A DNA stretch of 11,404 nucleotides. Source: Desulfobulbus sp. (GTDB taxonomy: Bacteria; Desulfobacterota; Desulfobulbia; Desulfobulbales; Desulfobulbaceae). The notes below the pieces were generated by a model. That model saw only the letters and a program-made list of their open reading frames with translations, did no database searches and was not told the DNA's origin. The stretch spans positions 1 to 11,404 of the forward strand of contig JAQUEZ010000197.1 in the NCBI GenBank assembly GCA_028684915.1, in the 5' to 3' direction. Below, one piece after another: positions 48-11,153 of this stretch. The translations under genes were made by a program, and so were the position numbers. Positions within the stretch are counted from its first letter, which is position 1, and the number at the start of each line of letters is the position of its first letter.

Positions 48-118
48 GTCCAACGTCGTGGGGGCGCACCAGCGGCGCGGCTTCACCGCGCCGACTGCGT
101 GCCGCCGCCTAGTTGGAT
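48..118 (-). other. attC: attC recombination site of the 763-83 cassette
   Basis: On the minus strand the R'' box is ATCCAAC (118-112) and the R' box is GTTGGAC (54-48). Between them a GC-rich imperfect hairpin forms from the GGCGGCACGC and GGGGCGCACC type arms. R'' is the exact reverse complement of the R' box at the start of this cassette (778-772), as expected for one excisable cassette. The core closely resembles the attCs at 2105-2169 and 5048-5112. The stop codon of the cassette gene (85-83) lies inside the site. Confidence 0.9.
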
Positions 119-763
119 CTCAGACAGCAAACTTGGCACCATTTCTCTGTAGTCGTCTATGGCCTGTATGCTTGCTAGCCTCAAACGTGCAGCAACATCG
201 GCGGTAATAATTCCTACCAGTACTAGCCATTCAAGAGTTCGTTCGACACCTCTTGGGTACGTCATTAACCACTCGCATATCTTCCCTCGAAAAACGTCAA
301 TGCCATAAACTTCAAGCTGGTCCCGCAGAAATGAATATTGCCCATATGTTGCCAGGTTCCATTCCAGGTATCCGACCTTGTTACTGACCTTCTCAAACCA
401 CGGAATAGCATTCAGGTGAACAAGGTCTTTAACTTCTGTTATTGCATTTTCAAATTGTCTTTCATCGTAAACCGACCACCATGCATCTCCGGTCATATTT
501 TCGGAAAGGCGAGTTGAAATTATTTCGATTGCTCCACTACGACTAGAACCAATGTTTGGTACGCTCCACTTGTGTCCAGTGCAGAGATTGATTGCGAATT
601 TGCCGCCATTCGTTTCCCAGTACTTGTCAATCTGCAGATATATTCCCTGCACATACTCAGGCGAGCGATGCCAGTATTCACGATGCTTTTCTTTTTCCCA
701 GTGACGGAAAAAGTCAAAGGAGGTTACGACTTGATGAAATGATTTGTTCAGTTTTTTTATCAT
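83..763 (-). CDS. Cassette-encoded hypothetical protein (DUF4304-like at most)
   Basis: Soluble 226-residue protein rich in Trp and Tyr, with no signal peptide or membrane segment. The start is set at the ATG at 763. A longer frame reaching 793 would encode ten residues translated from the attC at 772-827 (MISRPVGSKG), which is not credible. The N-terminal part (F-x-F-F-R, then Q-I-D-K-Y and K-F-A-I-N-L) faintly recalls DUF4304-type proteins, often found as accessory or immunity-like genes; this is a weak impression. The last nine residues (from LGGG) are encoded by attC DNA, and the stop lies within the attC. It is the only gene of its cassette. No catalytic motif is recognised. Confidence 0.75.
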   Translation of the reverse strand: MIKKLNKSFHQVVTSFDFFRHWEKEKHREYWHRSPEYVQGIYLQIDKYWETNGGKFAINLCTGHKWSVPNIGSSRSGAIEIISTRLSENMTGDAWWSVYDERQFENAITEVKDLVHLNAIPWFEKVSNKVGYLEWNLATYGQYSFLRDQLEVYGIDVFRGKICEWLMTYPRGVERTLEWLVLVGIITADVAARLRLASIQAIDDYREMVPSLLSEIQLGGGTQSAR

Positions 764-771
764 GCCTTTTG

Positions 772-827
772 ATCCAACGGGGCGGGAGATCACAGGCTGT
801 CAGGCCTGTGTATCTACCTGGTTGGAA
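772..827 (-). other. attC: attC site of the 2083-800 cassette (short type)
   Basis: This 56-base site has R'' TTCCAAC (827-821) and R' GTTGGAT (778-772) on the minus strand. The core is a clean hairpin: CACAGGC (791-797) pairs with GCCTGTG (804-810), extended by AGAT (787-790) with ATCT (812-815) around an extrahelical base. It is shorter and unlike the GC-rich attCs of the array, so the cassette probably came from another source. R'' matches the R' box at the cassette start (2111-2105) in six of seven bases. Confidence 0.85.
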
Positions 828-2083
828 CCTTTATCAACTGTTTCAACTTTGCCCGATCTTTTCATGTCTTCGGTCCCATCTGTTTTTGTGGTATCTGCAG
901 CCTTAGATGGCTTTATAGATGTTTTACGGCTACGCATGGAAAAAAGGAGAGGTTCGATGACCTGCCAGTGAATGTCCTTCTGAAAGGTAGGGAAATCGAA
1001 TGAACTTTTGAGTCTTCCGCGAAACGAATCCAACCATCTGTAATATTGCCATCCTGACGAGGTAATCAACGACAGTGGCTTTATCTGGCATCGTAGAAGA
1101 ATTGGCAGTTTTCGGCATTCTATGCTGTGTGGATCCTTCCCAACGTATTTTGCGAGGAATGCGTTTCCTACGACAGCACAAGAGTTGGAGTACTTCACTA
1201 TCAGTTCAATAGAAAGACGCTTCGTTTCAATTCTTATGCTGCCAACCTCTGAATGCTTAATTGTTGTACCGTTTGGAAGAACCAAATCAAATCTAGAGTA
1301 CATAGAACCATCGCTTCCCCACAGTGAGCAAAGTTCTCCTTCAGGCCGTTTTTTACCGTCAGGGAAAGCGTTAAGAAAGATATCTCGCTGTTCGATTGGT
1401 GTCGAAAGCAGGTTAAGAACCCTGTTTTTCAGCAAGAATGCAGGTATGTCTTCTCGCTTGTATTCTTTGATGTAAACATCGTCATCAGAGTCATTAAAAT
1501 AGGTTGAAAGATGAAGTGACAACTCATCCAGCAATACGAAGGAAACAGCTTCTTGTAGCAATCTAGCGGCTTGTGGGATTTTTACAGATTCTTCATCGAC
1601 CGTAACCCTGTAGATTGATATGTAAGTAGGTTGCTCACTTGCTTTTACATCTATTAATTCAGCAGTGCGTTCTTCTGAAGGTTCGTCCGCAGGTACAGGA
1701 ATAATTGGTTCTTTTTCCCATTCATTGAAGATCGACCGACTTTCCGCTTTCACAGCGGAAAGAGTCTCGTGTAGTTTTTCGGAAAAATCGTAGTCTCTGA
1801 CTGGAATGAGCTGGTTTCGTTTCGGATCAATCAATATTACTGCATCAATTTCATCCTCAAATGAGAGGCTGGATTTTAGGTCTTTAGCGAGTAAGCCAAA
1901 GGATATACATATCAAAAGAAATGCAATAGCCGTCGTGGCCCAAGTTGGGAGCATGGTCTGTGCTGCGAACTGGCTGGCCAAGGCACCTACAGAAAATGCA
2001 AGAATCGCAGCTATTACAAACAGCCGCACAAGCTCTTTTTTTTCGGTCAGTATATTCGCAAGAAGATTTGAGTTTGATTTCAT
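800..2083 (-). CDS. Two-TM membrane protein with large soluble domain, unknown function
   Basis: A 427-residue protein starting at an ATG at 2083, with AAGGA and AAGG upstream as the likely ribosome-binding site. Two hydrophobic segments (about residues 19-38 and 48-67) form an N-terminal hairpin, followed by about 360 soluble residues that should be cytoplasmic. The soluble part holds an acidic stretch (about 105-135) and a region reading F-D-L-V-L-P-N-G then I-R-I-E-T-K-R-L. No family is recognised. The C-terminal tail is Lys/Asp-rich, and the stop codon sits in the loop of the attC hairpin (802-800). It is the only gene of a large cassette. The two-TM-plus-cytoplasmic-domain layout resembles that of the 3656-2688 product, but no sequence similarity was noticed. 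Function unknown. Confidence 0.85.
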   Translation of the reverse strand: MKSNSNLLANILTEKKELVRLFVIAAILAFSVGALASQFAAQTMLPTWATTAIAFLLICISFGLLAKDLKSSLSFEDEIDAVILIDPKRNQLIPVRDYDFSEKLHETLSAVKAESRSIFNEWEKEPIIPVPADEPSEERTAELIDVKASEQPTYISIYRVTVDEESVKIPQAARLLQEAVSFVLLDELSLHLSTYFNDSDDDVYIKEYKREDIPAFLLKNRVLNLLSTPIEQRDIFLNAFPDGKKRPEGELCSLWGSDGSMYSRFDLVLPNGTTIKHSEVGSIRIETKRLSIELIVKYSNSCAVVGNAFLAKYVGKDPHSIECRKLPILLRCQIKPLSLITSSGWQYYRWLDSFRGRLKSSFDFPTFQKDIHWQVIEPLLFSMRSRKTSIKPSKAADTTKTDGTEDMKRSGKVETVDKGSNQVDTQA

Positions 2084-2104
2084 ATGGCCTTAGATTCCTT
2101 TGTA

Positions 2105-2169
2105 TGCCAACGTGGGCGGGGCGCACCGGCGGAGCGTAGCGTAGACCGAGTGCCGCCGCGTGGTTATAC
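2105..2169 (-). other. attC: attC site of the 2550-2176 cassette
   Basis: This 65-base site has R'' GTATAAC (2169-2163) and R' GTTGGCA (2111-2105). The core (GGGGCGCACCGGCGGAGCG, then GACCGAGTGCCGCCGC, plus strand) folds into an imperfect stem and is nearly the same as the attC at 5048-5112, also 65 bases long. R'' is the exact reverse complement of the R' box at the start of this cassette (2566-2560). Confidence 0.92.
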
Positions 2170-2175
2170 CTTGCC

Positions 2176-2550
2176 TTAAAAAACAACCGACGACCTATAC
2201 TCTTTGCCTCTATCATCAACGGCCACCGACTCCACAGCGAGTTGATGGTTTGGTTTTCTATAAATTTCTGTTCGCAATTCGCTGATGCAGCCAAGCTCAA
2301 CGTCATGACTGGCGGCAAGCTCAGGCAACCATTTTCGATATCTTTCAATTGAGGCGATAACGGTCGGAGGGAAACCATATTCTGATGTGGTGCTCTCGGG
2401 AATCCAGGTGATCACAAGGCGCCCGCCACTGAGGTGACGAGCAACTTCCTTCAAATCTTCGATTACAACACAGTCAGCCACTCTGTTCTCCCAGCTCACG
2501 AACGAGTGGGTAAAATTATGAGCCAATGATTTGATATTTTTGTATTTCAT
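2176..2550 (-). CDS. Small cassette-encoded hypothetical protein
   Basis: Soluble 124-residue protein starting at the ATG at 2550, behind a modest GGAAAG ribosome-binding site and 10 bases from the R' box at 2560-2566. The N-terminus MKYKNIKSLAHNFTHSF resembles a group of conserved hypothetical proteins I associate with integron cassettes; no function is known for them. The rest holds acidic and aromatic residues without any Cys/His metal site, signal peptide or membrane segment. It is alone in its cassette, and its TAA stop is six bases before the attC. Real gene by position, ribosome-binding site and fit between two attC sites; role unknown. Confidence 0.8.
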   Translation of the reverse strand: MKYKNIKSLAHNFTHSFVSWENRVADCVVIEDLKEVARHLSGGRLVITWIPESTTSEYGFPPTVIASIERYRKWLPELAASHDVELGCISELRTEIYRKPNHQLAVESVAVDDRGKEYRSSVVF

Positions 2551-2559
2551 TTTCTTTCC

Positions 2560-2652
2560 GTATAACGGGGTCGGAATTGACCGGCTTGACCGGTCTTATT
2601 TTGTGGTTGGGATTGCACATCAATTTTCTATTTTTATTTTCCAGGGTTGACC
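2560..2652 (-). other. attC: attC site of the 3656-2688 cassette (long type)
   Basis: The R' box is GTTATAC (2566-2560). The R'' box is taken as GGTCAAC (2652-2646) because it is the exact reverse complement of the R' box at the start of this cassette (GTTGACC, 3681-3675). A closer candidate, GTTGGGA on the plus strand at 2606-2612, lacks that match. Inside are a GACCGG/CCGGTC hairpin (2578-2594) and AATTGA/TCAATT pairing. At 93 bases it is the longest attC of the array and AT-rich, unlike its neighbours. Confidence 0.7.
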
Positions 2653-2687
2653 CTTTTGGGGTGTTGAAGTTACTGTTTTTCCTCTAT

Positions 2688-3656
2688 TTATGGCTGTGTT
2701 ATATTTGCATTGGTAAGCGCATTTTTTTCAAGTTCTGCAATTCTCCATGCCACGCAATTGTTATATGAAAACACGAACCGAGAGAGCAGTGAGCAAATAA
2801 ATCCCATTATGTCAATTACATCATCAGCAAATGGTTTGTCCTGTTCAGAAGTAAGAACTAATACACCTATTGGTTGTGTTGAGCATGCCTCAAATATTGG
2901 GTGTGCCGCATATCTTGAAAAGTAGACCTCTGGTCTTCGCTTCGAGTCTGCCCCGTAAAACACTGTAGGATCGTCGTTGATGGTACGATCTTTCGCTTGT
3001 TTCTGATGAAATATAGGCAATAACAGTGATGATTCTGGTAATCCTTTCGCATATTCAACTGGGATTTGAGGACTAAAGAAGTACTTAATCTGAAAGGATT
3101 GATTCAACGAATTGGAATCAGTCAGTTTGAGGCACCTTACATAGTTGGTCTGGAAATAAACCTCAAAGGTATATTTTGTCCCGGAAACTCCTAAAACGGT
3201 TACGCAATTATCCGTTATCTTTCTGATTATTGGACTAAGACTCTTTGCAAAATCCTCGTCACACCAAGGGTCAAGGTAGCACGTTTCAGTATTTAGAGCG
3301 TCGAAGGCTTCTCGCACCATGCGATAAGCTTCATTGCGTCGCTCTAATTCTTTAGCAGAATGTTCCAAGGCAGTTCTTGTTTCGATGGCTTCCGCTAAAT
3401 ACTGGGGGGCTAGGACTTGTGATCTGAGAACCAACGTTACCCCAAGGACCAAGTGAGCTATAACAATCGCACCTAAACAGATACTGGGCATGAAAACCGA
3501 TGTCTTCCCGAATATTGCCGATGCTAATACAGAAGCGAGAATCGCTTCGATGATAGGAAAAATAAATGTCACAAGTATCTGAATCAATGTGTTGTTGCAG
3601 GCATCGAACCGCAGTACTTTTTTCAGCTCATTCATCCAATCTAGGTTGGTTTTCAT
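2688..3656 (-). CDS. Two-TM, coiled-coil, GAF-like membrane protein
   Basis: A 322-residue protein. Start set at the ATG at 3656, which follows a good GAGAGGA ribosome-binding site; an extension to 3680 would be translated attC. Layout: short cytoplasmic N-terminus, TM1 (about 24-48), TM2 (about 55-78), a probable coiled coil (about 86-118, E-T-R-T-A-L-E-H-S-A-K-E-L-E), then a globular domain (about 125-305). That domain ends Q-P-I-G-V-L-V-L-T-S, then F-A-D-D-V-I-D-I-M-G, the usual last strand and helix of a GAF fold. GAF domains bind small ligands such as cyclic nucleotides. No output domain (kinase, cyclase, HD, nuclease) follows, so the protein may act through its membrane part or a partner. 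GAF call from pattern only. Confidence 0.8.
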   Translation of the reverse strand: MKTNLDWMNELKKVLRFDACNNTLIQILVTFIFPIIEAILASVLASAIFGKTSVFMPSICLGAIVIAHLVLGVTLVLRSQVLAPQYLAEAIETRTALEHSAKELERRNEAYRMVREAFDALNTETCYLDPWCDEDFAKSLSPIIRKITDNCVTVLGVSGTKYTFEVYFQTNYVRCLKLTDSNSLNQSFQIKYFFSPQIPVEYAKGLPESSLLLPIFHQKQAKDRTINDDPTVFYGADSKRRPEVYFSRYAAHPIFEACSTQPIGVLVLTSEQDKPFADDVIDIMGFICSLLSRFVFSYNNCVAWRIAELEKNALTNANITQP

Positions 3657-3674
3657 ATTTTCCTCTCGTTCACT

Positions 3675-3749
3675 GGTCAACGGCGCGCGCCCTTGACCCG
3701 CACCGGGGCGCTTCTCAGCCCCGGTCGGTGTCCAAGGGCCTGGTTACGG
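3675..3749 (-). other. attC: attC site of the 4058-3744 cassette
   Basis: This 75-base site has R'' CCGTAAC (3749-3743) and R' GTTGACC (3681-3675). A strong hairpin forms: CCCTTG pairs with CAAGGG and CACCGGGGC pairs with GCCCCGGT around a GCTTCTCA-type loop. The TAA stop of the cassette gene lies in R''. The matching R' box at the cassette's own start (a minus-strand GTTACGG) is missing, consistent with the intron and inverted-repeat element that occupy that junction. Confidence 0.85.
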
Positions 3750-4058
3750 CTTGACCTTTGTGTCTCGCCAGAAGGGGATTTCCTGTGACCAATCGTAGCC
3801 ATACCATTTGGTGGCTAGGCTTTTGAATTCTTCCTGGTTGATCTCTACCCATTCGTCTTTCTTGCATTTCGATTTGTCTGGTCCGAATCGCTTGAATGGG
3901 CCTTTGCCATAAATGCCGCCTCGCAGATCTCGCGACTTCTCGCACTTGAAAAACCTGTAGTCGATCAACTTATGATGTGGCTCTTCGCCTCGACTGCTCG
4001 GCGCCATCAAATTAAAAAACAAAGTCAGGAGAATCAGCATGATTCTATTGGTCTTCAT
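3744..4058 (-). CDS. Small exported protein, unknown function
   Basis: A 104-residue protein starting at the ATG at 4058 after a strong GAGAGGA ribosome-binding site. Residues 1-24 form a Sec-type signal peptide: MKTNR, a hydrophobic core I-M-L-I-L-L-T-L-F-F-N-L, then a small-residue region ending near S-S-R-G. The mature part is about 80 residues, basic and aromatic, with two cysteines (C39, C65) that could form a disulfide in the periplasm. No lipobox is seen. Upstream lie the 79-bp inverted-repeat element and the intron fragment, so any promoter arriving from the right must read through them. Its stop is in the R'' box of its attC. No family recognised. Confidence 0.75.
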   Translation of the reverse strand: MKTNRIMLILLTLFFNLMAPSSRGEEPHHKLIDYRFFKCEKSRDLRGGIYGKGPFKRFGPDKSKCKKDEWVEINQEEFKSLATKWYGYDWSQEIPFWRDTKVKP

Positions 4059-4084
4059 ATTCCTCTCATGCCAGAGAAGCGAGC

Positions 4085-4163
4085 GGGACGCCCTTTATAT
4101 ATTTACATTCCAACCAAATTTTTCAGCTAGACACCTCAAATATAAATATCTAAAGGGCGTCCC
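4085..4163 (+). mobile_element. 79-bp MITE-like element with 21-bp terminal inverted repeats
   Basis: The left arm (4085-4105, beginning GGGACGCCCTTTA) and right arm (4143-4163, ending TAAAGGGCGTCCC) are inverted copies with one mismatch in 21 bases. They enclose a 37-base centre. No clear target-site duplication is seen. Such GGGACG-type palindromes recall single-stranded-DNA (Y1/REP-associated) transposition products, but no transposase is present, so that link is inference. It sits exactly between the truncated intron and the ribosome-binding site of the 4058-3744 gene. As RNA it would form a strong hairpin. Confidence 0.75.
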
Positions 4164-4428
4164 CTTGACCTCCCTCCGGATGGTTATCGGGCTTTGAAGT
4201 CACGTGCCTTCTCGCCCGGATACGGCTGCCTCGTATGCGATTTCTGTTCGTCGGGCCGGGACTTTGCCTGCGGCTTCCTTCAGATTCCGGATCACTCCGG
4301 ACACCCTTGCCGTCCGGCTAACGGTTCCCACCATCAGGGTCCGTAGAGGACTTTCACCTCCAAGTCAACGATCAACCACCACAGTTGATCATACGGCACT
4401 TTCGTGCCACGCGCCCTGCCGGGCGCAC
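4164..4428 (-). mobile_element. Truncated group II intron, 5' part of domain I
   Basis: The minus strand begins at 4428 with GTGCGCCC, the GUGYG-type 5' end of a group II intron. Three hairpins follow: GGGCGC/GCGCCC (4426-4411), GGCAC-GAAA-GTGCC (4408-4395) and GATCAAC/GTTGATC (4390-4370). Then come blocks typical of bacterial intron domain I, such as GGTGAAAGTCC, CGGCAAGGGTGTCCGG, AATCTGAAGGAAGC and CGAACAGAAATC. Similarity to remembered intron 5' regions continues at least to GATAACC (about 4182). There is no reverse transcriptase reading frame, domain V or 3' end; the rest is deleted. The left limit is set at the edge of the inverted-repeat element. A plus-strand reading frame across this region is spurious. 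Confidence 0.85.
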
Positions 4429-4480
4429 ACGGCTGAGGGTTCACCTGCCGGTTCGGGCAGGTGCAACCCGTTGGTTGGCA
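4429..4480 (-). other. attC: attC site of the 5023-4489 cassette, interrupted by the group II intron
   Basis: R'' is TGCCAAC (4480-4474), the exact reverse complement of this cassette's starting R' box (5054-5048). A near-perfect hairpin follows: GGGTT (4437-4441) plus CACCTGCC (4442-4449) pair with GGCAGGTG (4456-4463) and AACCC (4465-4469) around one extrahelical base. The site then stops at ...GCCGT (4430-4429), just where GTT of R' is expected, and the intron begins. The remainder of R' is absent, so this attC should no longer be fully functional. Confidence 0.8.
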
Positions 4481-4488
4481 TTCGCCCT

Positions 4489-4761
4489 TTACTGTTCCGT
4501 CTGGACTGCAAAGACCGTAAACTCCTCACCATCAAGCTCGATCCTTTTTTTCCAGACGTGTTTTCGATTAGGGACTTCTTCAAAGTCGCCGGCATACGCC
4601 TTCTGAGAAAGTTCCTTTTTTAGAAGAGGTGTCAATCCTTGAAAAGCATTTTGCGGAAGTTCTGAGGTCCAACTTGAAACGAAGCCTTTGAAATTGCTGT
4701 GTTTGGCTTGAGCCACATAACTGCTGCCCTGGTAGGTGACAATATATGTGTAAAGCGGCAT
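4489..4761 (-). CDS. Small hypothetical protein, second gene of a two-gene cassette
   Basis: Soluble 90-residue protein starting at the ATG at 4761 behind a strong AGGAGAG ribosome-binding site. The N-terminus (MPLYTYIVTYQGSSYVAQAK) reads as two beta strands; a basic middle and a C-terminal strand (E-E-F-T-V-F-A-V) suggest a small alpha/beta fold. No signal peptide or cysteines. It begins 28 bases after the stop of the 5023-4790 gene, with no attC between, so the two share one cassette and are probably co-transcribed. Its TAA ends nine bases before the attC. Family and function not recognised. Confidence 0.75.
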   Translation of the reverse strand: MPLYTYIVTYQGSSYVAQAKHSNFKGFVSSWTSELPQNAFQGLTPLLKKELSQKAYAGDFEEVPNRKHVWKKRIELDGEEFTVFAVQTEQ

Positions 4762-4789
4762 ATTCTCTCCTCTATGTGGTTCCCGCCTT

Positions 4790-5023
4790 TTATTCGGTTT
4801 TCTCGCTCACCGCTACTTCCTTCTCCCGTCCGAAGCCTCGCCCTTTAATCCATGTCCCACAAAAAGGGCAGTAGTAAAGGTGCCACAGACCGCTGATATA
4901 CCATTGGGTCTCATCGATATTTGCATGTTTCTCGTAGGCGTACGAGATCTCATTGGAAACATACGCCTCGAAAAACCTGTCGCAGCAGACTTCTTCTCTG
5001 GTCTTCGACTTAGGTTTAGCCAT
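4790..5023 (-). CDS. Small CPFCG zinc-knuckle-like hypothetical protein, first gene of a two-gene cassette
   Basis: 77-residue protein. The ATG at 5023 is preferred because AGGCGGA precedes it, whereas the longer frame to 5053 starts inside the attC. The N-terminus is Lys-rich, followed by a CC pair (13-14) and an aromatic segment leading to Y-Y-C-P-F-C-G-T-W-I (about residues 48-57). The CxxC in that setting is a typical half zinc ribbon; a second metal ligand pair could be the CC at 13-14, but this is a guess. Co-cassette with the 4761-4489 gene. No enzyme motif seen. Confidence 0.75.
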   Translation of the reverse strand: MAKPKSKTREEVCCDRFFEAYVSNEISYAYEKHANIDETQWYISGLWHLYYCPFCGTWIKGRGFGREKEVAVSEKTE

Positions 5024-5047
5024 TGTTCCGCCTTTATTCGTTTTCCT

Positions 5048-5112
5048 TGCCAACGTGGTGGGGGCGCACCGGCGGAGCGCAGCGAAGACCGTGTGCCGCC
5101 GCCTTGTTGAAC
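5048..5112 (-). other. attC: attC site of the 5948-5120 cassette
   Basis: This 65-base site has R'' GTTCAAC (5112-5106) and R' GTTGGCA (5054-5048). R'' is the exact reverse complement of the R' box that opens the cassette (5949-5943). The core GGGGCGCACCGGCGGAGCG is identical to that of the attC at 2105-2169, with only scattered differences in the rest, showing the two belong to one attC subfamily. Confidence 0.93.
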
Positions 5113-5119
5113 GTCTCAG

Positions 5120-5710
5120 TTAGTCCTGTTCTTTCTTCAGGAATTGATACTCTGCTACATCTGTGCGAAACATCAAATCACCACATTTCTGGCACTCCTG
5201 CGTGCTTCCGTCAACGATGAATTCACGAACGCCACAATCCTGGTTACAGACAGCATATGAAATATGGATTTTCTCTGGGAAAGTGACTTCTCCAGGGTCA
5301 GGGTAATTACCGACGTCGGCTTCCCAACGGCCAAGTGAGCGAAGGTGAGCGAGGAAGGATTCTCTACGGCACTTTTGCGGGCCAAGGTTTGTAAATCGCT
5401 GACGAATCGCCTCTAGAAGGTTTTCTACTTCATCTGTTATTTCTTCTTTTTCACCTGTTTCGAGACAGAAAATTGAGTCATCCATATCTTGAGGAATCTT
5501 GCCCCACTCGTTGAATTCTTCATCTGTCATGGATGCATAGCGTTTAGTCGGTACTTCTCGTACGTTCCAGGCGAAATTTAGATGATGATATGCGTGTTGA
5601 AGCATCACCAGGAGTTCACCTTCGAGAAGGTTGGCAGAAAGCCTCTTCTCGATTTCTTCTAGCTGCTCTCGTGCCTCTTTAATGTTGCTTTCGATTATTT
5701 GTCGGTTCAT
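5120..5710 (-). CDS. Coiled-coil protein with C-terminal zinc-ribbon-like motif
   Basis: A 196-residue protein starting at the ATG at 5710, four bases after the stop of the preceding membrane-protein gene. A frame extended to 5779 overlaps that gene and is rejected. Residues 1-50 are charged and helical (I-K-E-A-R-E-Q-L-E-E-I-E-K-R-L), a likely coiled coil. An acidic middle follows. The C-terminus holds Y-A-V-C-N-Q-D-C-G, then E-C-Q-K-C-G-D-L: a C-x3-C ... C-x2-C set that looks like a zinc ribbon with a widened first pair. No signal or membrane segment. Tight coupling to the upstream gene suggests translational coupling and a shared role. Function unknown. Confidence 0.8.
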   Translation of the reverse strand: MNRQIIESNIKEAREQLEEIEKRLSANLLEGELLVMLQHAYHHLNFAWNVREVPTKRYASMTDEEFNEWGKIPQDMDDSIFCLETGEKEEITDEVENLLEAIRQRFTNLGPQKCRRESFLAHLRSLGRWEADVGNYPDPGEVTFPEKIHISYAVCNQDCGVREFIVDGSTQECQKCGDLMFRTDVAEYQFLKKEQD

Positions 5711-5714
5711 TTTC

Positions 5715-5948
5715 TCATGCCTTTTTTTCGCTGGTCTTACCGTATTTCTGAATGAAGTATCGGAGGAAAATAATTCCAAAACCTACTGGCGGCAGGAATC
5801 CAAGCTTCTGCCATCCCTCCAATACAAAAAACAGCAATATTCCGCACGCAATAAAAGCGAGGGAGAACAGGCTGCCTAGTGCCAAAAAAATATTCTGTGA
5901 AATGAACTCATTTTTGCCTGTTCCATCTCTCAATCTTTTGTCGTTCAA
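5715..5948 (-). CDS. Small two-TM membrane protein, first gene of a two-gene cassette
   Basis: 77-residue reading frame with two hydrophobic segments (about residues 18-43, I-F-L-A-L-G-S-L-F-S-L-A-F-I-A-C, and 49-66, L-G-F-L-P-P-V-G-F-G-I-I-F-L) and a Lys-rich tail. The N-terminus is uncertain: no in-frame ATG exists. The TTG at 5948 lies inside the R' box (GTTGAAC) at the recombination junction; another TTG is at 5933. Neither has a convincing ribosome-binding site. Its stop is four bases before the start of the 5710-5120 gene, so the pair forms a compact operon within one cassette. The membrane profile argues for a real gene; function unknown. Confidence 0.6.
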   Translation of the reverse strand: MNDKRLRDGTGKNEFISQNIFLALGSLFSLAFIACGILLFFVLEGWQKLGFLPPVGFGIIFLRYFIQKYGKTSEKKA

Positions 5949-6006
5949 CGTCTAAAGGCGCCAGCGGCGGAGCGTCAGCGGAGACCGCTGTCGCCGCTGG
6001 TTACAT
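5943..6006 (-). other. attC: attC site of the 6269-6018 cassette
   Basis: This 64-base site has R'' ATGTAAC (6006-6000) and R' GTTGAAC (5949-5943). CCAGCGGCG (plus strand) pairs with CGCCGCTGG, and the inner AGCGGAGACCGCT forms the hairpin tip. R'' matches the R' box at the cassette start (6289-6283, GTTACAC) except for the last base. Confidence 0.9.
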
Positions 6007-6017
6007 GTGCTGTGCAG

Positions 6018-6269
6018 TTATCGGAGTAATTCTTCAATAAGGTTATTGATTCGCTCTTCATACTGCTTCCATTCTGTTTCGCTTGCACCCATGAACCCGC
6101 CTCTTTTCGGCTCATGCTCTATCATGTCAACAAGTTCATCGATCAATGGGTCTTCAACTTCAATGTCTCCAAAATTAAGGATGAAGTCATCCCACGAAAG
6201 GTTGCCTGCTTTATATTCTTTGGCGTTAGCTGCAACTTCTACTTGCAACTCTTTTAGTGTCTTTTTCAT
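6018..6269 (-). CDS. Small acidic cassette-encoded protein
   Basis: 83-residue, strongly acidic, probably all-helical protein starting at the ATG at 6269 after AAAGAG. The sequence opens MKKTLKELQVEVAANAKEYK and is followed by L-S-W-D-D-F-I-L-N-F-G-D, an acidic loop (I-E-V-E-D-P-L-I-D-E-L-V) and a C-terminal helix. Small acidic helical proteins of this type are sometimes immunity proteins or antitoxins, but no partner toxin lies in the same cassette and no family is recognised. The TAA falls 12 bases before the attC. Fit between two attC sites supports it as the cassette's gene. Confidence 0.75.
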   Translation of the reverse strand: MKKTLKELQVEVAANAKEYKAGNLSWDDFILNFGDIEVEDPLIDELVDMIEHEPKRGGFMGASETEWKQYEERINNLIEELLR

Positions 6270-6282
6270 AATTCTCTTTGTT

Positions 6283-6355
6283 GTGTAACAGCTCGGCAGT
6301 TGACCCGTCAGCCCGGTATTTTTCGGGCGGGCGGCGTCTAACTGTCTGGTTGGCC
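6283..6355 (-). other. attC: attC site of the 7360-6338 cassette
   Basis: This 73-base site has R'' GGCCAAC (6355-6349) and R' GTTACAC (6289-6283). R'' is the exact reverse complement of the R' box opening the cassette (7386-7380). The core folds into a long hairpin: CAGTTGAC pairs with GTC-T-AACTG around one extrahelical T, and further in CCGTCAGCCCG pairs with CGGGCGGGCGG, including a mismatch and a wobble. The core differs in sequence from the GC-rich subfamily. The stop of the cassette gene (6340-6338) is inside the site. Confidence 0.92.
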
Positions 6356-7360
6356 CTCAATACTATTTATCTGCGGCAGTTTGTCGCAATCTAAGAGAGG
6401 CACTCCTTCACTCTCCAATGTTTCAAAGGGATCACCGCCACGTGTTCCAGTGGCCGGATTTAAATCTCCCCAAGCAGAGAGGAGCGACAACCCAGGAGAT
6501 TCTAATACCCTGTAAATTGACTCCAAAAGGTAATACATGAATTTTTCTAGGCCAGTAGTGATGTTTGTTGATTGTCGATACATGTACGGAAGCCTTCGTA
6601 ACCCAGGTCCGTAAACCCCTTGACCGTAAATATCGTCAGGCGGTCCCCATCCTTGGAAAAAGTTAGCTCCTCCGTTTTCGATAGTTGTAATTAAGCAGGG
6701 GTATATACGCCTCAGGTCGTCCCAAATTTCAAGATCGACATCAAACGGATTGATCCGCTGTAGTGAAGGAATTATCGACGCAGTAAAGTCGCTACGCAAC
6801 TGAAGCGCGTTAGCATAGAAATTTTGAATTCTAGGAAGAATGGCTTTTATTGAATCCGGCTGCGAGTAGAAAACTAGAAACTTCATAATCGGAGGCATTG
6901 GCTTCCCTGTTTTCGGGTAGATAAACCTACGAAATTTTAAATCAAGAGGTACAACACTTAGGAGATTGTCTAATCCATGATCTAATTCTTTTGATGTCAT
7001 TTTGCTTTTTACTGAAATCACTGCAATCACTGATTCGGGAGGCACAATGACAAACTGGCCAGCATCATAGACCGGTGAGTGAACAGCGCGATGCCAAATT
7101 ATGATGTCTAGTTGCTTACTGGTCTCAACTTGTTCAAAGCCATAAATGAAGCCTGTATCAACAGATACTGATGTCGGAAGAAGTTTCGATAAAAAGCTTC
7201 TTAATAGCTCTTCTCTAAATCGTCCGCTTTCAGCGTTTTGCTGTCGGCCCAATAGATCGAATACATGATTTTTTGTCTCCATAAATGATTTGGAATAACT
7301 TTTCGCAACTTTTCGAAATTCAGGAAGTACTGGTGGATCTATAGAGTTCCTTGGTTTCAT
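6338..7360 (-). CDS. DUF6602-like protein (PD-(D/E)XK-type fold, degenerate motif)
   Basis: A 340-residue protein starting at the ATG at 7360 after an AGAGGA ribosome-binding site. Residues 45-120 follow the pattern I know from DUF6602-type proteins: S-G-R-F-R-E-E-L-L-R-S-F-L (E50/E51), L-P-T-S-V-S-V-D-T-G-F-I, then K-Q-L-D-I-I-I-W (D85), then P-P-E-S-V-I-A-V-I-S-V-K-S (S116, K118). In a PD-(D/E)XK nuclease the last element is normally E-x-K; here the acidic residue is Ser, so catalysis may be lost or use another residue. The C-terminal 200 residues are unassigned. No signal or TM. Such proteins occur in accessory and defence regions. The last six residues and the stop are encoded by attC. 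Confidence 0.8.
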   Translation of the reverse strand: MKPRNSIDPPVLPEFRKVAKSYSKSFMETKNHVFDLLGRQQNAESGRFREELLRSFLSKLLPTSVSVDTGFIYGFEQVETSKQLDIIIWHRAVHSPVYDAGQFVIVPPESVIAVISVKSKMTSKELDHGLDNLLSVVPLDLKFRRFIYPKTGKPMPPIMKFLVFYSQPDSIKAILPRIQNFYANALQLRSDFTASIIPSLQRINPFDVDLEIWDDLRRIYPCLITTIENGGANFFQGWGPPDDIYGQGVYGPGLRRLPYMYRQSTNITTGLEKFMYYLLESIYRVLESPGLSLLSAWGDLNPATGTRGGDPFETLESEGVPLLDCDKLPQINSIEGQPDS

Positions 7361-7379
7361 GTGATCCTCTTATTCTGCT

Positions 7380-7449
7380 GGCCAACGGGGCCGAGGCGCA
7401 GCGGCGGCGCGATTCTCAGCGCCGACCTGCTGCCGCCGAGTGGTTGGCT
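7380..7449 (-). other. attC: attC site of the 7820-7455 cassette
   Basis: This 70-base site has R'' AGCCAAC (7449-7443) and R' GTTGGCC (7386-7380). R'' is the exact reverse complement of the R' box opening the cassette (7836-7830). The core is GC-rich (GCAGCGGCGGCGC ... GCGCCGACCTGCTGCCGCCG on the plus strand) and folds into an imperfect stem. Confidence 0.93.
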
Positions 7450-7454
7450 TTGAT

Positions 7455-7820
7455 TCACTTCAAATCATAGAAACTGTATTCAAGGTTCAAGTTTCCTGAT
7501 TCGACTTTTCCTGGTTGATACCGGATTTCCATTGAATCAGAGTACCAGTCACCGCCCCATGAGAAGTCTATTTTGCCGTTTAGATGCTCTGTCTTGTATG
7601 GTTTGTTGTTTAACATGAGAACTAGTTCTGCATTTCCTGTCAAATTCCCACTTCCGCGCACTCCCATAGCATATATGCCGCGTTGATTACCTTTTTTATG
7701 CAGAGTGATTATCTGTGGTTTTTGAGTGTCCGAAACCGCGAGGTTCTGATCATATTTGCTGCACGAGACGCAATAAATGGTCATCAGAAGTATCAGAATG
7801 TTGTAGATGATTTTTATCAT
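7455..7820 (-). CDS. Putative lipoprotein, unknown function
   Basis: A 121-residue protein starting at the ATG at 7820, ten bases from the R' box, with no obvious ribosome-binding site. Residues 1-20 form a lipoprotein-type signal: MIKIIYNILILLMTIYCVSC, with C20 the likely lipidated residue (V-S-C just before it; the Cys at -3 is atypical). The mature part is polar and probably beta-rich, with G-V-R-G-S-G-N-L-T-G-N and an aromatic W-G-G-D-W-Y segment. It would be processed by Lgt, which is encoded elsewhere in this window, though that is coincidence rather than linkage. First gene at the leading end of the preserved array. Confidence 0.75.
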   Translation of the reverse strand: MIKIIYNILILLMTIYCVSCSKYDQNLAVSDTQKPQIITLHKKGNQRGIYAMGVRGSGNLTGNAELVLMLNNKPYKTEHLNGKIDFSWGGDWYSDSMEIRYQPGKVESGNLNLEYSFYDLK

Positions 7821-7829
7821 GTTTTATTC

Positions 7830-7898
7830 AGCCAACGTGTTTGGGGCTGAGCGGCGGAGCGAAGCGGAGTCCGTCTCCAGCCCTCTGGATAGTTGGGG
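7830..7898 (-). other. attC: First attC of the array; its own cassette is missing
   Basis: R'' is CCCCAAC (7898-7892) and R' is GTTGGCT (7836-7830). GGGCTG (plus strand, 7843-7848 area) pairs with CAGCCC, with a GCGGAGCGAAGCGGAGTCCG-type tip. It marks the 3' end of a cassette that should lie to the right, but no minus-strand gene is found there, and no matching R' box (plus-strand CCCCAAC) occurs between 7899 and 8257. The R'' end is duplicated in the 14-bp tandem repeat. Confidence 0.85.
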
Positions 7899-7915
7899 TC
7901 AGATAGTTGGGGTCA
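7888..7915 (+). repeat. 14-bp perfect tandem duplication at the array edge
   Basis: GATAGTTGGGGTCA occurs twice without a gap (7888-7901 and 7902-7915). The first copy contains the R'' end of the attC. The second continues as GGGGTCAGGCTTGCATTATT, which resembles a dispersed sequence I recall beside Y1/REP-type transposases in proteobacteria. It could mark the insertion or deletion that removed the array's leading cassette. That origin is inference. Confidence 0.7.
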
Positions 7916-8159
7916 GGCTTGCATTATTGTAATTTAAAAAAACAAAAGCTTTTCAGCCTTCCCCACTTCCTTTCCACCCCACATAAAAACCGCTTATTTA
8001 TACCACAACACCCCTTAATATTTAACAATTTTTATAATATTTTTCTACTTAGCCACAATACATACTACAAATTCATCAAATTCCAGCCTCACTAGCCAAA
8101 CTTGCGAGAGAAAAGAACAAGTGTCCTCAGTTCCTATAACCACCCAAAGTCATTCCAAC
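7899..8159. other. AT-rich gene-free region at the leading end of the array
   Basis: About 260 bases between the first attC and the ettA terminator. The minus strand has no reading frame of useful length; a 62-codon plus-strand frame (7907-8095) lacks a ribosome-binding site and looks spurious. No integrase gene, attI-like junction or tRNA was seen. The stretch holds part of the tandem repeat, a purine/pyrimidine-skewed segment and an AT-rich block (about 8015-8050) with a possible minus-strand promoter. It is probably a decayed cassette or the scar of a lost integron platform. Confidence 0.5.
8031..8058 (-). promoter_or_regulatory. Possible sigma70 promoter reading into the array
   Basis: On the minus strand TTGTGG (8058-8053) and TATAAA (8036-8031) are separated by 16 bases, in an AT-rich block upstream of the first cassette gene. 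Position and direction suit a promoter for the array, but AT-rich DNA gives such matches easily. Confidence 0.25.
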
Positions 8160-8189
8160 AAAAAAAGGCGACACCCGAAGGTGTCGCCT
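8160..8189 (-). terminator. Intrinsic terminator of ettA
   Basis: A perfect 10-bp stem AGGCGACACC/GGTGTCGCCT (8166-8175 and 8180-8189) with a four-base loop is followed on the minus strand by a T tract (8165-8160). It lies about 70 bases after the ettA stop codon. It should also limit read-through from ettA into the cassette array. Confidence 0.9.
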
Positions 8190-8195
8190 CTCAAC

Positions 8196-8211
8196 TCCCG
8201 CTTCTGCGGGA
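8196..8211 (-). repeat. Small hairpin between ettA and its terminator
   Basis: TCCCGC (8196-8201) and GCGGGA (8206-8211) form a 6-bp stem with a four-base loop. No T tract follows directly, so it is not itself a complete terminator; it may support the terminator downstream. Confidence 0.45.
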
Positions 8212-8257
8212 ACAACCAAAAACTATCTAAATCCAATTTTTACAGAACACTCGCCCC

Positions 8258-9940
8258 CTACCGCGTCAACTGCCGATACTTGATCCGATGGGGCTGATCG
8301 GCCGCGGCGCCGAGCCGCTTCCGCCGATCTTCTTCGTACTCGGAGTAGTTCCCCTCAAACCACACTACCTTGCTGTCCCCCTCGAAGGCGAGAATATGGG
8401 TGGCAATACGGTCAAGGAACCAGCGGTCATGGCTGATGACCACGGCGCAGCCGCCGAAGCTCTCCAGAGCCTCCTCAAGGGCGCGCATGGTGTTGACATC
8501 CAGGTCGTTGGTCGGTTCGTCCAGCAACAGGACATTGGCCCCCTCCTTCAGCATCCGCGCCAGGTGCACACGGTTACGCTCGCCACCGGACAGCATGCCG
8601 ACCTTTTTCTGCTGGTCGGAACCGGAGAAGTTGAACCGGGAAACGTAGGCCCGCGAGTTAACCTGCTGCTTGCCCAGCTGCAGGATGTCCTGCCCTTCGG
8701 AGATAACCTCCCAGATGCTCTTGTCCGGATCGAGCGCATCGCGGCTCTGGTCCACGTAAGCCAGCTTGACCGTGTCGCCGACCTTGATGGTGCCGCTGTC
8801 GGGCTGCTCCTGGTCGGTGATCATGCGGAACAGGGTGGTCTTGCCGGCACCGTTCGGGCCGATGATGCCGACGATGCCCCCCGGCGGCAGGTTAAAAGTC
8901 ATGTCCTCGACCAACAACCGGTCGCCATAGGCCTTGCTGACCGCGTCCGCCTCGACCACGGTTTTGCCGAGCCGCGGTCCGGGCGGGATGTAGATCTCCA
9001 AGTCCTTGGCCCGCTTTTCGCCCTCCTGCCCCAGCAGTTCCTCGTAGGAGGTAATACGCGCACGACCCTTGGCGTGGCGGCCCTTGGGCGACATGCGAAT
9101 CCACTCCAGCTCCCGCTGCAGGGTCTTTTGCCGCTCACTCTCGCTCTTTTCCTCCTGGCGCAGCTTTTCCTGCTTCTGCTCCAGCCATGAGGAATAGTTG
9201 CCCTTCCAGGGAATCCCCTCGCCCCGGTCCAGCTCCAGGATCCAGCCGGCCACGTTGTCCAGGAAGTAGCGGTCATGGGTTACGGCGATGATGGTGCCGG
9301 GGTAGCGCTGCAGATGATGCTCCAGCCAGGCCACCGATTCAGCATCCAGGTGGTTGGTGGGCTCGTCCAGCAGCAGGATGTCCGGCTGTTGGAGAAGCAG
9401 TCGGCAGAGGGCCACCCGGCGCTTCTCGCCACCCGAGAGAGTGGCGGTCTTTGTTTCCGGCGGCGGACAGCGCAGCGCGTCCATGGCCATCTCCAGCCGT
9501 GAATCCAGGTCCCAGGCATCCAGCGTATCGAGCTTTTCCTGCACTTCGGCCTGGCGCTCGCAGAGCTCAGCCATCTCGTCGTCGGACATGGGCTCGGCAA
9601 AGCGTTCGTTGATCTTGTTGAATTCGTTCATCAGGTCAACCGTGCCCTGCACCGCTTCCTCGACCACCTCGCGCACCGTCTTGTCCGGATCGAGTTTCGG
9701 CTCCTGCTCCAGGAAGCCGACCGTCAGGCCGGAAGAGAGAATGGTCTTGCCGATGAAATCCTGGTCAACCCCCGCCAGGATACGCAGCAGCGAACTCTTG
9801 CCGGAGCCGTTCAGGCCGAGCACGCCAATTTTGGCGCCGTAGAAGTAGGACAGCGAGATATCCTTGAGGACCTGCTTCTTGTCGTAGAATTTACTTACAC
9901 CCATCATCGTGTAGATGACTTTTTTGTCGTCGTTACTCAT
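8258..9940 (-). CDS. ettA: Energy-dependent translational throttle protein EttA (ABC-F ATPase)
   Basis: A 560-residue ABC-F protein, close to the roughly 555 residues usual for EttA. It binds the ribosomal E site and gates the first elongation step according to ATP/ADP. Two ABC domains: Walker A GLNGSGKS (42-49), signature LSGGE (168-172), Walker [13 protein letters not shown] (188-199); second Walker A GPNGAGKT (361-368), a second LSGGE and [12 protein letters not shown]. The EttA arm insertion is present in domain 1 (about 95-145), and a charged P-tRNA-interaction linker (about 250-315) joins the domains. No membrane part, as expected. The ATG at 9940 is chosen: AAGGAG stands 11 bases before it, whereas the GTG at 9952 is almost inside that site. 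GC-rich, core-type gene, followed by its own terminator. Confidence 0.95.
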
Positions 9941-10343: not shown

Positions 10344-11153
10344 ATGCAATTTCCCGAAATCAAACCGTACATCTTCAAGATCGGCACCCTGGAAGTCCGC
10401 TGGTACGGACTCATGTATATCCTCGGTTTCCTCGCCGCCTACCTGATCGCCGTTTCCGATGCCAAGCGGAAGAAGCTCCCGCTCACCAAAGACGACATCG
10501 CCGACCTCATTTTCGCCCTGGCCGTTGGCCTGATTGTCGGCGCCCGCGTCGGCTACGCTCTCTTTTACAATGTTTCGTACTATCTTGCCAACCCTTTCAA
10601 GGTATTCGCCGTATGGGAAGGGGGGATGTCGTTCCATGGCGGGCTGATCGGCTGCGTAATCGCCGCACTCTATTTTTCCCGCAAGAAGAAGATCGGCTTC
10701 TTCCAGATCGCCGATCTCATTACCCCGGCCGCCCCGATCGGGCTCGGTCTCGGACGGCTCGGCAACTTTATCAACGGCGAACTGTACGGACGCATTACCG
10801 ATGTCTCGTGGGGCATCGTCTTTCCCACCGGTGGCCCGCTGCCGCGTCATCCGTCCCAGCTCTACGAGTCATTTCTCGAAGGGCCGGTGATGTTCTTCAT
10901 CCTCTGGCTGGTGCGCCGCTCCAAGGCGCCTGTCGGCGTAGTGCTCTGGGTGTTCCTCGCATTTTACGGGCTGTTCCGGTCCTTTGTCGAGCTGTTCCGC
11001 GAACCGGACCAGCAGCTCGGCTTCCTGTTCGGCTCCTTCACCATGGGTCAGATGCTGAGCATTCCGCTGTTTCTGTTCGGCGTGGCAATGGTGGTGTTCT
11101 CTTACAGGAAGGAAGCGAAAAGCGGGCAGCAGAAAAAAAGGCCTGCCAAGTAA
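10344..11153 (+). CDS. lgt: Prolipoprotein diacylglyceryl transferase (Lgt)
   Basis: A 269-residue inner-membrane enzyme that transfers diacylglycerol from phosphatidylglycerol to the lipobox cysteine of prolipoproteins, the first step of lipoprotein maturation. Family marks: R-W-Y-G-L-M-Y (19-25), G-G-M-S-F-H-G-G-L-I-G (93-103, with the essential His at 98), and the Lgt signature G-R-L-G-N-F-I-N-G-E-L-Y-G (137-149, with R138, N141, E146). Further on are H-P-S-Q-L-Y-E and F-R-S-F-V-E-L-F-R-E-P-D. About seven hydrophobic segments and a basic C-terminal tail. The ATG at 10344 is preferred: AAGGGA lies upstream and the normal family N-terminus (M-Q-F-P-E-I) starts there; a frame from 10257 adds 29 unrelated residues. 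Normal length, core gene. Confidence 0.96.
   Translation: MQFPEIKPYIFKIGTLEVRWYGLMYILGFLAAYLIAVSDAKRKKLPLTKDDIADLIFALAVGLIVGARVGYALFYNVSYYLANPFKVFAVWEGGMSFHGGLIGCVIAALYFSRKKKIGFFQIADLITPAAPIGLGLGRLGNFINGELYGRITDVSWGIVFPTGGPLPRHPSQLYESFLEGPVMFFILWLVRRSKAPVGVVLWVFLAFYGLFRSFVELFREPDQQLGFLFGSFTMGQMLSIPLFLFGVAMVVFSYRKEAKSGQQKKRPAK

Follow-up and report, generated by a model that had tools for sequence, protein, structure and literature searches.

A cassette array without an integrase beside ettA, probably left behind by an integron that lost its platform

How does a row of integron cassettes come to stand beside a core chromosomal gene with no integrase at its leading end? Contig JAQUEZ010000197.1 raises this question. 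We analyzed the contig as a whole, i.e., a window of 11,404 bases. On its minus strand, between positions 48 and 7898, the window holds eleven attC sites, of which ten are whole and one is halved, and to the right of the array lies the core gene ettA. A sequence-only reading of this DNA had described the eleven sites and about twelve mostly unrecognized genes. It left two readings side by side: a cluster of attC sites lacking integrases nearby (CALIN), or an integron whose platform was deleted. The sites are borne out, with the outer boxes as described there, by the chain of their boxes, a covariance model and the corresponding sites of relatives. Eleven attC sites, where at least two define a CALIN, and no integrase in the 3.5 kb to their right qualify the array, judged by its right side, as a CALIN, whereas a complete chromosomal integron would carry intI, attI and the cassette promoter Pc beside the array. 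We consider it probable that this CALIN arose when a chromosomal integron linked to ettA lost its platform.

In the direction of the cassette genes, which is right to left, the sites are A12, A11, A10, A9, A8, A6, A5, A4, A3, A2 and A1 (there is no A7). Integron recombination cuts between the G and the TT of GTT (G^TT). For this reason, a cassette starts with the rest of its own R′ box and ends with R″, and each R″ is expected to be complementary to the box at the opposite end of its cassette, not to the adjoining R′. We compared the R″ of each attC with the box that opens the cassette to which it belongs, which gives nine links, since A6 is without an R′. With the R″ of A4 placed as in two copies of this attC type in genome G051, 31 of 36 variable positions agree, a value reached on the strictest reading by 3 of 100,000 shuffles. 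Leaving out the A4 link, the agreement is 30/32 (6 of 100,000 shuffles). The two boxes inside one attC agree at just 15 of 40 positions, as expected if each R′ was completed by the cassette after it. The box chain shows that the cassettes were assembled by site-specific recombination.

Our first placement of the A4 R″, at 2646–2652, gave 34/36, which none of 100,000 shuffles reach. That box was chosen knowing the expectation, and the placement is contradicted by the two G051 copies. As now read, A4 (2560–2612, minus strand; R″ TCCCAAC, R′ GTTATAC) is weak by model and fold, and its type is present twice in the G051 array. The box at 2646–2652 (GGTCAAC, minus strand) is the R″ expected for the cassette of gene g4 and could be a remnant of a lost attC. 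Together with the mismatch in the A4 link, it suggests that two attC sites were fused after loss of the material between them. A strict attC pattern scan, requiring paired boxes and a fold, caught only A1, A2 and A12. We dropped it as too strict, because within an array the R′ and R″ of a single attC are not required to pair.

A covariance model was built from five of the window's sites, all on the minus strand as are the others: A1 (48–118; R″ ATCCAAC, R′ GTTGGAC; 80.5 bits), A3 (2105–2169), A8 (5048–5112; 85 bits), A9 (5943–6006) and A11 (7380–7449). Three earlier attC alignments, which were misaligned or mixed, were kept out of it. With filters off, the model recovered A12 (7830–7898; 40.5 bits) and A2 (772–827; 34 bits) without training on them. 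In control sequence from 16 loci (332,516 bases, run at default filters), the best matches had E-values of 0.64 and 4.1. The scores of the remaining sites are at the level of chance matches, namely A5 (3675–3749; 11.7 bits), A10 (6283–6355; 9.8 bits), A4 (9.4 bits) and the half-site A6 (4431–4480; 7.8 bits), with E-values of 0.3 to 4. Since several places in the window that are not attC score alike (e.g., 10.2 bits at 4370–4390 and 8.7 bits at 9392–9427), the model does not establish these four. They appear to be attC sites of other types, judging by similar sites in the cassette arrays of relatives: 83–95% identity for A5 (in loci L121, L125, L129 and L130), 90% over 63 bases for A10 (in the G048 array), 84–90% for A6 and 85–89% for A4. 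One survey of attC likeness was limited to locus L001 and the loci above L080. When ten sites were folded as DNA, six clearly beat shuffled sequences (z −2.3 to −5.3), the fold of A4 was weak (z −1.67, at its longer reading of 2560–2652), and the folds of A3, A8 and A12 were no better than shuffles (z 0.76, −0.59 and −0.64).

The leading end of the array carries no platform. By the sequence-only reading, intI and attI should lie to the right of 7898 but were not seen on that side, and none was found there: the 3.5 kb to the right of the array hold no integrase, attI or platform open reading frame (ORF) that our searches could detect. Seven integrase (IntI) queries from relatives, run against the whole window, gave only chance-level matches, the best covering 16 residues with an E-value of 0.62. 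These queries come from seven of ten loci in which motifs revealed an integrase; L126, L127 and L167 gave none and were left out. The divergent ORF of the relatives' platforms has no match of note in the window. The attI motif is absent from the window at up to two mismatches, and at three mismatches has one match, inside gene g1, as do 44 of 200 shuffles. A consensus scan of 7300–8300 found no site resembling a sigma-70 promoter.

The same stretch had been called AT-rich and free of genes. There is indeed no ORF of at least 50 amino acids upstream of A12 on its strand before ettA, and two small ORFs of this gap belong to no family. The stretch is not featureless, however. Most of it is a dispersed repeat of about 200 bp (7907–8109, plus strand) with an end of the type found in insertion sequence IS200. 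The repeat begins GGGGTCAGGCTTGCATTATTG, and a second copy (81% identity) occurs in G051:C267. At one mismatch, this 21-base end motif adjoins a transposase gene in G042, identified by its Y1_Tnp match, and similar ORFs in G051, which were recognized by likeness. With ends shared with elements that bear Y1 transposases, the repeat looks like a non-autonomous element of the IS200-like or repetitive extragenic palindromic (REP) type. A 14-base unit, GATAGTTGGGGTCA, is doubled across the junction of A12 and the repeat (7888–7901 and 7902–7915). The outermost R″ bases of A12 are the same as the repeat end, so the original R″ of this site is uncertain. Another window motif, AAGTGTCCTCAGTTCCTATAAC, was considered as an element end and rejected, with no match in 47 genomes at two mismatches. 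Between the repeat and ettA (8258–9940, minus strand) lies the ettA terminator hairpin (8163–8192, minus strand), with similar sequence in G048 and G001.

Relatives of the window show what may once have occupied this place. The flanking core gene lgt (10344–11153, plus strand) is 86% identical in its best segment to contig JAQUHM010000212.1 (L001) of a Geobacteraceae metagenome-assembled genome, G001. In the family of G001, 19 of 48 genomes have an integron-integrase match at an E-value of 1e-40, and 18 exceed the family cut-off. We searched 47 genomes for EttA, found a match in 45 and fetched 30 loci with flanks of up to 1.5 kb. Comparisons among fetched loci covered proteins from L093 onward (above 55 bits) and DNA above L120; a later one covered DNA above L162 and proteins from L163, and another the loci below L007 and above L080, plus the window. 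In five of the 30 ettA loci (G001, G048, G047, G046 and G049), lgt adjoins ettA as it does in the window. The bacterium from which the window comes is Geobacteraceae-like.

In two of the relatives, this place next to ettA is taken by a platform or by what is left of one. In G015, an IntI gene (a frame of 462 amino acids) lies directly downstream of ettA, convergent with it and 80–90 bp away. It is followed by a divergent ORF of 117 amino acids, AT-rich short repeats, attI (GGTCAATAACGAGTT) and an attC array. G048 has the closest EttA among those searched (96% identical), and its lgt adjoins ettA, an arrangement shared with the window. Downstream of its ettA are a similar terminator, two end pieces of IntI and the divergent ORF, then attI and attC sites, all oriented as in the window. 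The IntI pieces correspond to query residues 6–65 and 409–462 and are in different frames; the search at an E-value of 1e-40 found no IntI match in this draft genome. The likeness of the window to G048 downstream of ettA ends at the edge of the ettA terminator. More generally, the attI motif is present, at up to two mismatches, in seven of 13 loci searched. It is found 5′ of intI, or of what remains of it, in G015, G016, G038, G039, G042 and G048, with attC-model matches beyond it in G015, G038, G039 and G048.

Of the two readings that the sequence-only reading had left standing, the second is favored. Because G015, with an intact integrase, and G048, with a gutted one, carry intI and attI on the same side of ettA, loss of a platform explains the window better than a cluster that is simply without an integrase. 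Under this model, a Geobacteraceae-like bacterium would have had a chromosomal integron downstream of ettA, and this integron would have lost its platform. The array would have been built by integrase-mediated capture of cassettes at attI; the box chain shows the capture, while attI and growth from a platform at this spot are suggested by the relatives. The repeat of about 200 bp with the IS200-type end would have come to lie against the first attC, perhaps before or together with the deletion. From the place between the repeat and the ettA terminator, intI, attI, the divergent ORF and one or more cassette genes would have disappeared. The remaining cassettes would depend on their own promoters, as there is no platform promoter to serve them, and would presumably need an integrase supplied in trans for any recombination.

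Several observations weigh against this history. An intact IntI gene stands beside ettA in only one of the 30 loci, and IntI remnants in one other. In other relatives the integron has a different neighbor, a miaA-like gene in G001 and a phoU-like gene in G039 (both named by eye), so the seat at ettA is not universally ancestral; the other genes found at the ettA spot in G047 and G049 point the same way. In G046, about 130 bp from ettA, there is a stretch 75% identical to the group IIC intron fragment of the window that is described below. No scar of intI remains in the window. No cassette protein of the window was matched in the fetched arrays of relatives at the cut-offs used, so the common descent of the ettA-linked arrays rests on their position and orientation. 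The relatives are also draft assemblies, which may hide or join pieces.

Another explanation is that the array never had a platform here, and that an integrase encoded elsewhere inserted the cassettes at a secondary site downstream of ettA. G001 does keep a full-length integrase at another locus, beside the miaA-like gene, plus a second, partial one, and Xanthomonas commonly has CALINs at a distance from intI (PMC12444791). The attI of G015 and G048, accompanied by an intact or gutted intI on the same side of ettA, argues against such an origin. Moreover, the array opens with a gene-less attC beside the repeat, an arrangement that is more readily explained by a cut cassette than by a first insertion. 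We regard a secondary site as unlikely.

It is also conceivable that the integron is complete in the cell, and that the contig is a misassembly joining the array to ettA. The window is a whole contig, it contains repeats of the kind where assemblies break, and of the six 5′ intron copies found in G001, five run up to the edge of a contig. Since G048 and G015 each show, independently of the window, an array next to ettA with the same orientation, we think a misassembly very unlikely. Least probable of all, hardly deserving of weight, is an integrase beyond the left contig end serving the array from there: the array does continue off that end, with an ATG and ten codons past the R′ of A1, but the attI of relatives is at the 5′ side of intI with the attC sites beyond it, and the equivalent place in the window is the right end.

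The missing platform is not the only sign of decay, for the array contains remnants of an intron and of transposon-like elements. The sequence-only reading took A6 for a whole attC, which it is not: only its R″-side half is present on this side of a group IIC intron fragment that splits the site. The fragment (4133–4430, minus strand) begins with GTGTG at 4430 and matches Rfam family RF02001 at 4133–4301 with 88.6 bits (gathering score 32); its extent to 4430 comes from similarity to relatives, among the matches listed. It is the only Rfam match in the window above the gathering score (SECIS_5 and SNORD35 score below theirs), and we saw neither a reverse transcriptase ORF nor a 3′ half of the intron in the window. 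Four array loci of relatives gave no Rfam match at the gathering score.

The GTGTG of the intron starts directly after the A6 hairpin. The whole attC of this type in L131 reads CAGCCGTTGTAG, while the window reads CAGCC|GTGTGCG. This alignment places the insertion of the intron directly ahead of the GTT of R′, where the half-site is severed. The 5′ GUGYG, the group II catalytic core and the insertion right after a stem-loop place the fragment in group IIC. Group IIC-attC introns, by contrast, run opposite to the cassettes, on the bottom strand, and are mostly inserted at TTGT/T, whereas this intron runs with the cassettes, on the top strand of attC, at CC|GTT. The intron entered the A6 hairpin and was cut short, and what remains of it is now followed by a REP-type element. 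This palindromic element (4076–4174, minus strand), into which the intron remnant runs, is identical to G051:C17 at 99 of 99 aligned bases, and 25-base pieces of the palindrome surround a Y1_Tnp gene in G002:C111.

Related introns are also present in G001, where one lies right after the ettA terminator. In each of the five G001 copies whose 5′ junction can be read, the intron comes after a terminator-like hairpin with a T-run, as judged by eye; the sixth copy, in L108, has no exact 5′ motif. Five G001 copies (L103–L107) each end at a contig end. A match to GTGTGCGCC in L110 lies outside the intron and was not counted.

These remnants invite a broader conjecture, which we consider doubtful: in Geobacteraceae, attC hairpins might be shared landing pads for group IIC introns (on the top strand), IS200-like repeats and REP elements, and a repeat landing on the first attC might prepare the loss by which an integron becomes a CALIN. 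A preference of the IS200-like repeat for attC is weakly supported. The 14-base end of this repeat occurs at 60 sites in 18 of the 47 genomes, and among 30 fetched loci with this end, two (representing the same place in G029) have an attC-model match (20 bits, E-value 0.015) and one more has a match at an E-value of 0.61. Outside this set, the repeat copy in G051:C267 is 1.6 kb from the nearer of two attC matches. The copy in G035 abuts what by eye looks like half an attC, where the model finds none. Copies of the end motif near or against attC-like sequence are those of L179 (G035), L190 (G051:C267) and L168 (G029), while the other fetched copies mostly lack such a neighbor. We found no report in the literature searched of a link in Geobacteraceae between attC and elements of the IS200 type, the type mobilized by REP-associated tyrosine transposases (RAYT) or miniature inverted-repeat transposable elements (MITE). 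As a general idea, an interplay of attC with elements that use single-stranded DNA is already in print, having been proposed in PMC7923331; PMC8266576 compares the recognition of folded DNA.

CALINs themselves are of an already known kind. As in the IntegronFinder definition, the window has attC sites in tandem, cassette genes in one direction and no integrase nearby. It differs in its number of sites, eleven where the source of that definition gives nearly 6 per CALIN on average, and in having relatives that show the seat of the platform and an apparent half-way stage of its loss. The ilvD-linked integrons of Xanthomonas, in which intI is inactivated or missing (PMC12444791), likewise combine a core-gene seat, a decaying integrase and arrays left behind. 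In the window, however, the seat is ettA, the setting is Geobacteraceae, and the arrangement is common to few of the genomes examined. Inactive integrases are frequent in general: one study (PMC2426708) counted close to one third of intI genes as pseudogenes, and in another (PMC3108266) 43% seemed inactivated.

Also similar in content is the CALIN of Halorhodospira halochloris (PMC7923331), an integrase-less array with broken group II introns and an adjoining IS200-like element. Its introns belong to group IIB, and its IS200/605 element, with tnpA and tnpB, follows the last cassette. By contrast, the window has a group IIC intron, and a repeat without a transposase at the leading end, in the place of the platform. 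The group IIC-attC introns treated in the same paper share with the window's intron an attC hairpin as 5′ exon and a position inside a cassette array, and differ in strand, direction and insertion site as described above. One top-strand case is given there, from Enterobacter cloacae, which is a group IIC intron but not a IIC-attC intron.

If the proposed history is correct, the intact platform of G015, the gutted integrase of G048 and the window, where the platform is gone, form a plausible decay series at one seat. Such a series would make the origin of CALINs testable by comparing close species.

The platforms of the relatives have properties of their own. Their IntI frames are 330–523 amino acids long, six of the seven being 457–523, and in G015 about 150 residues precede the TIGR02249 match. 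By length only, they can be set beside the long integrases with a gene fusion of clade 15 (PMC2426708); this likeness concerns the relatives' IntI and not the window. A conserved ORF of about 115–120 amino acids, with a DUF5710 match below the cut-off, has tblastn matches at the integrase loci of ten genomes: G001, G003, G005, G007, G015, G016, G038, G039, G042 and G048 (examples are L125:10418–10768, L163:15824–16183 and L100:8744–9088). In G015 and G048, it is read divergently between intI and attI and is followed by AT-rich short repeats. The ORF could be a platform-linked regulator. In G001:C331 (L102, at 3436–3739 and 15837–16142), a contig other than that with the full-length integrase, an N-terminal piece of IntI lies about 12 kb from C-terminal pieces, with efflux-type genes, by eye, in between. 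The two C-terminal pieces run in opposite directions about 20 bp apart, and mark another broken platform in the lineage.

The flanking genes to the right of the array have matches to ABC transporter for ettA, which was named by likeness to relatives, to LGT for lgt, and to HATPase_c_2.

The ten cassettes carry twelve predicted genes, all on the minus strand, in keeping with the number estimated by the sequence-only reading, and most are indeed unrecognized: only g1 and g10 reach a Pfam cut-off. The array leaves the contig at its left end, where 47 bases remain beyond A1 and a further cassette starts. The gene nearest to that end, g1 (83–769; 228 amino acids), has a DUF4304 domain (PF14137, 26.8 bits against a cut-off of 23.2). 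No Pfam family was found for g2 (800–2083; 427 amino acids), which has at least 85 related proteins at an E-value of at most 0.001 among the best 7998 candidates scored, or for g4 (2688–3653; 321 amino acids). No family was found for g3 (2176–2550; 124 amino acids), g6a (4489–4761; 90), g6b (4790–5023; 77), g8a (5120–5710; 196), g8b (5715–5948; 77) or g11 (7455–7820; 121). Gene g5 (3744–4058; 104 amino acids) is an ORF prediction, and the leading end of its cassette, expected to read TTACGG, was not seen. The match of g9 (6018–6269; 83 amino acids) to DUF1048 is below the cut-off. Among the six genes submitted to NCBIfam, only g4 matched, with two sub-threshold families. Nine of the twelve genes were submitted to PADLOC and to PHROGs; the former gave nuclease-like matches for g10 and one weak match for g9, and the latter two matches of unknown function, to the same two genes.

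Two of the cassettes, at 4489–5023 and 5120–5948, contain two genes each, separated by 28 and 4 bases, and these could be co-selected pairs. The protein encoded by g10 (6338–7360; 340 amino acids), which belongs to DUF6602 and has 74 other relatives at an E-value of at most 0.001, matches nucleases of the PD-(D/E)XK or NucC type, and might be a defense nuclease carried as an integron cassette.

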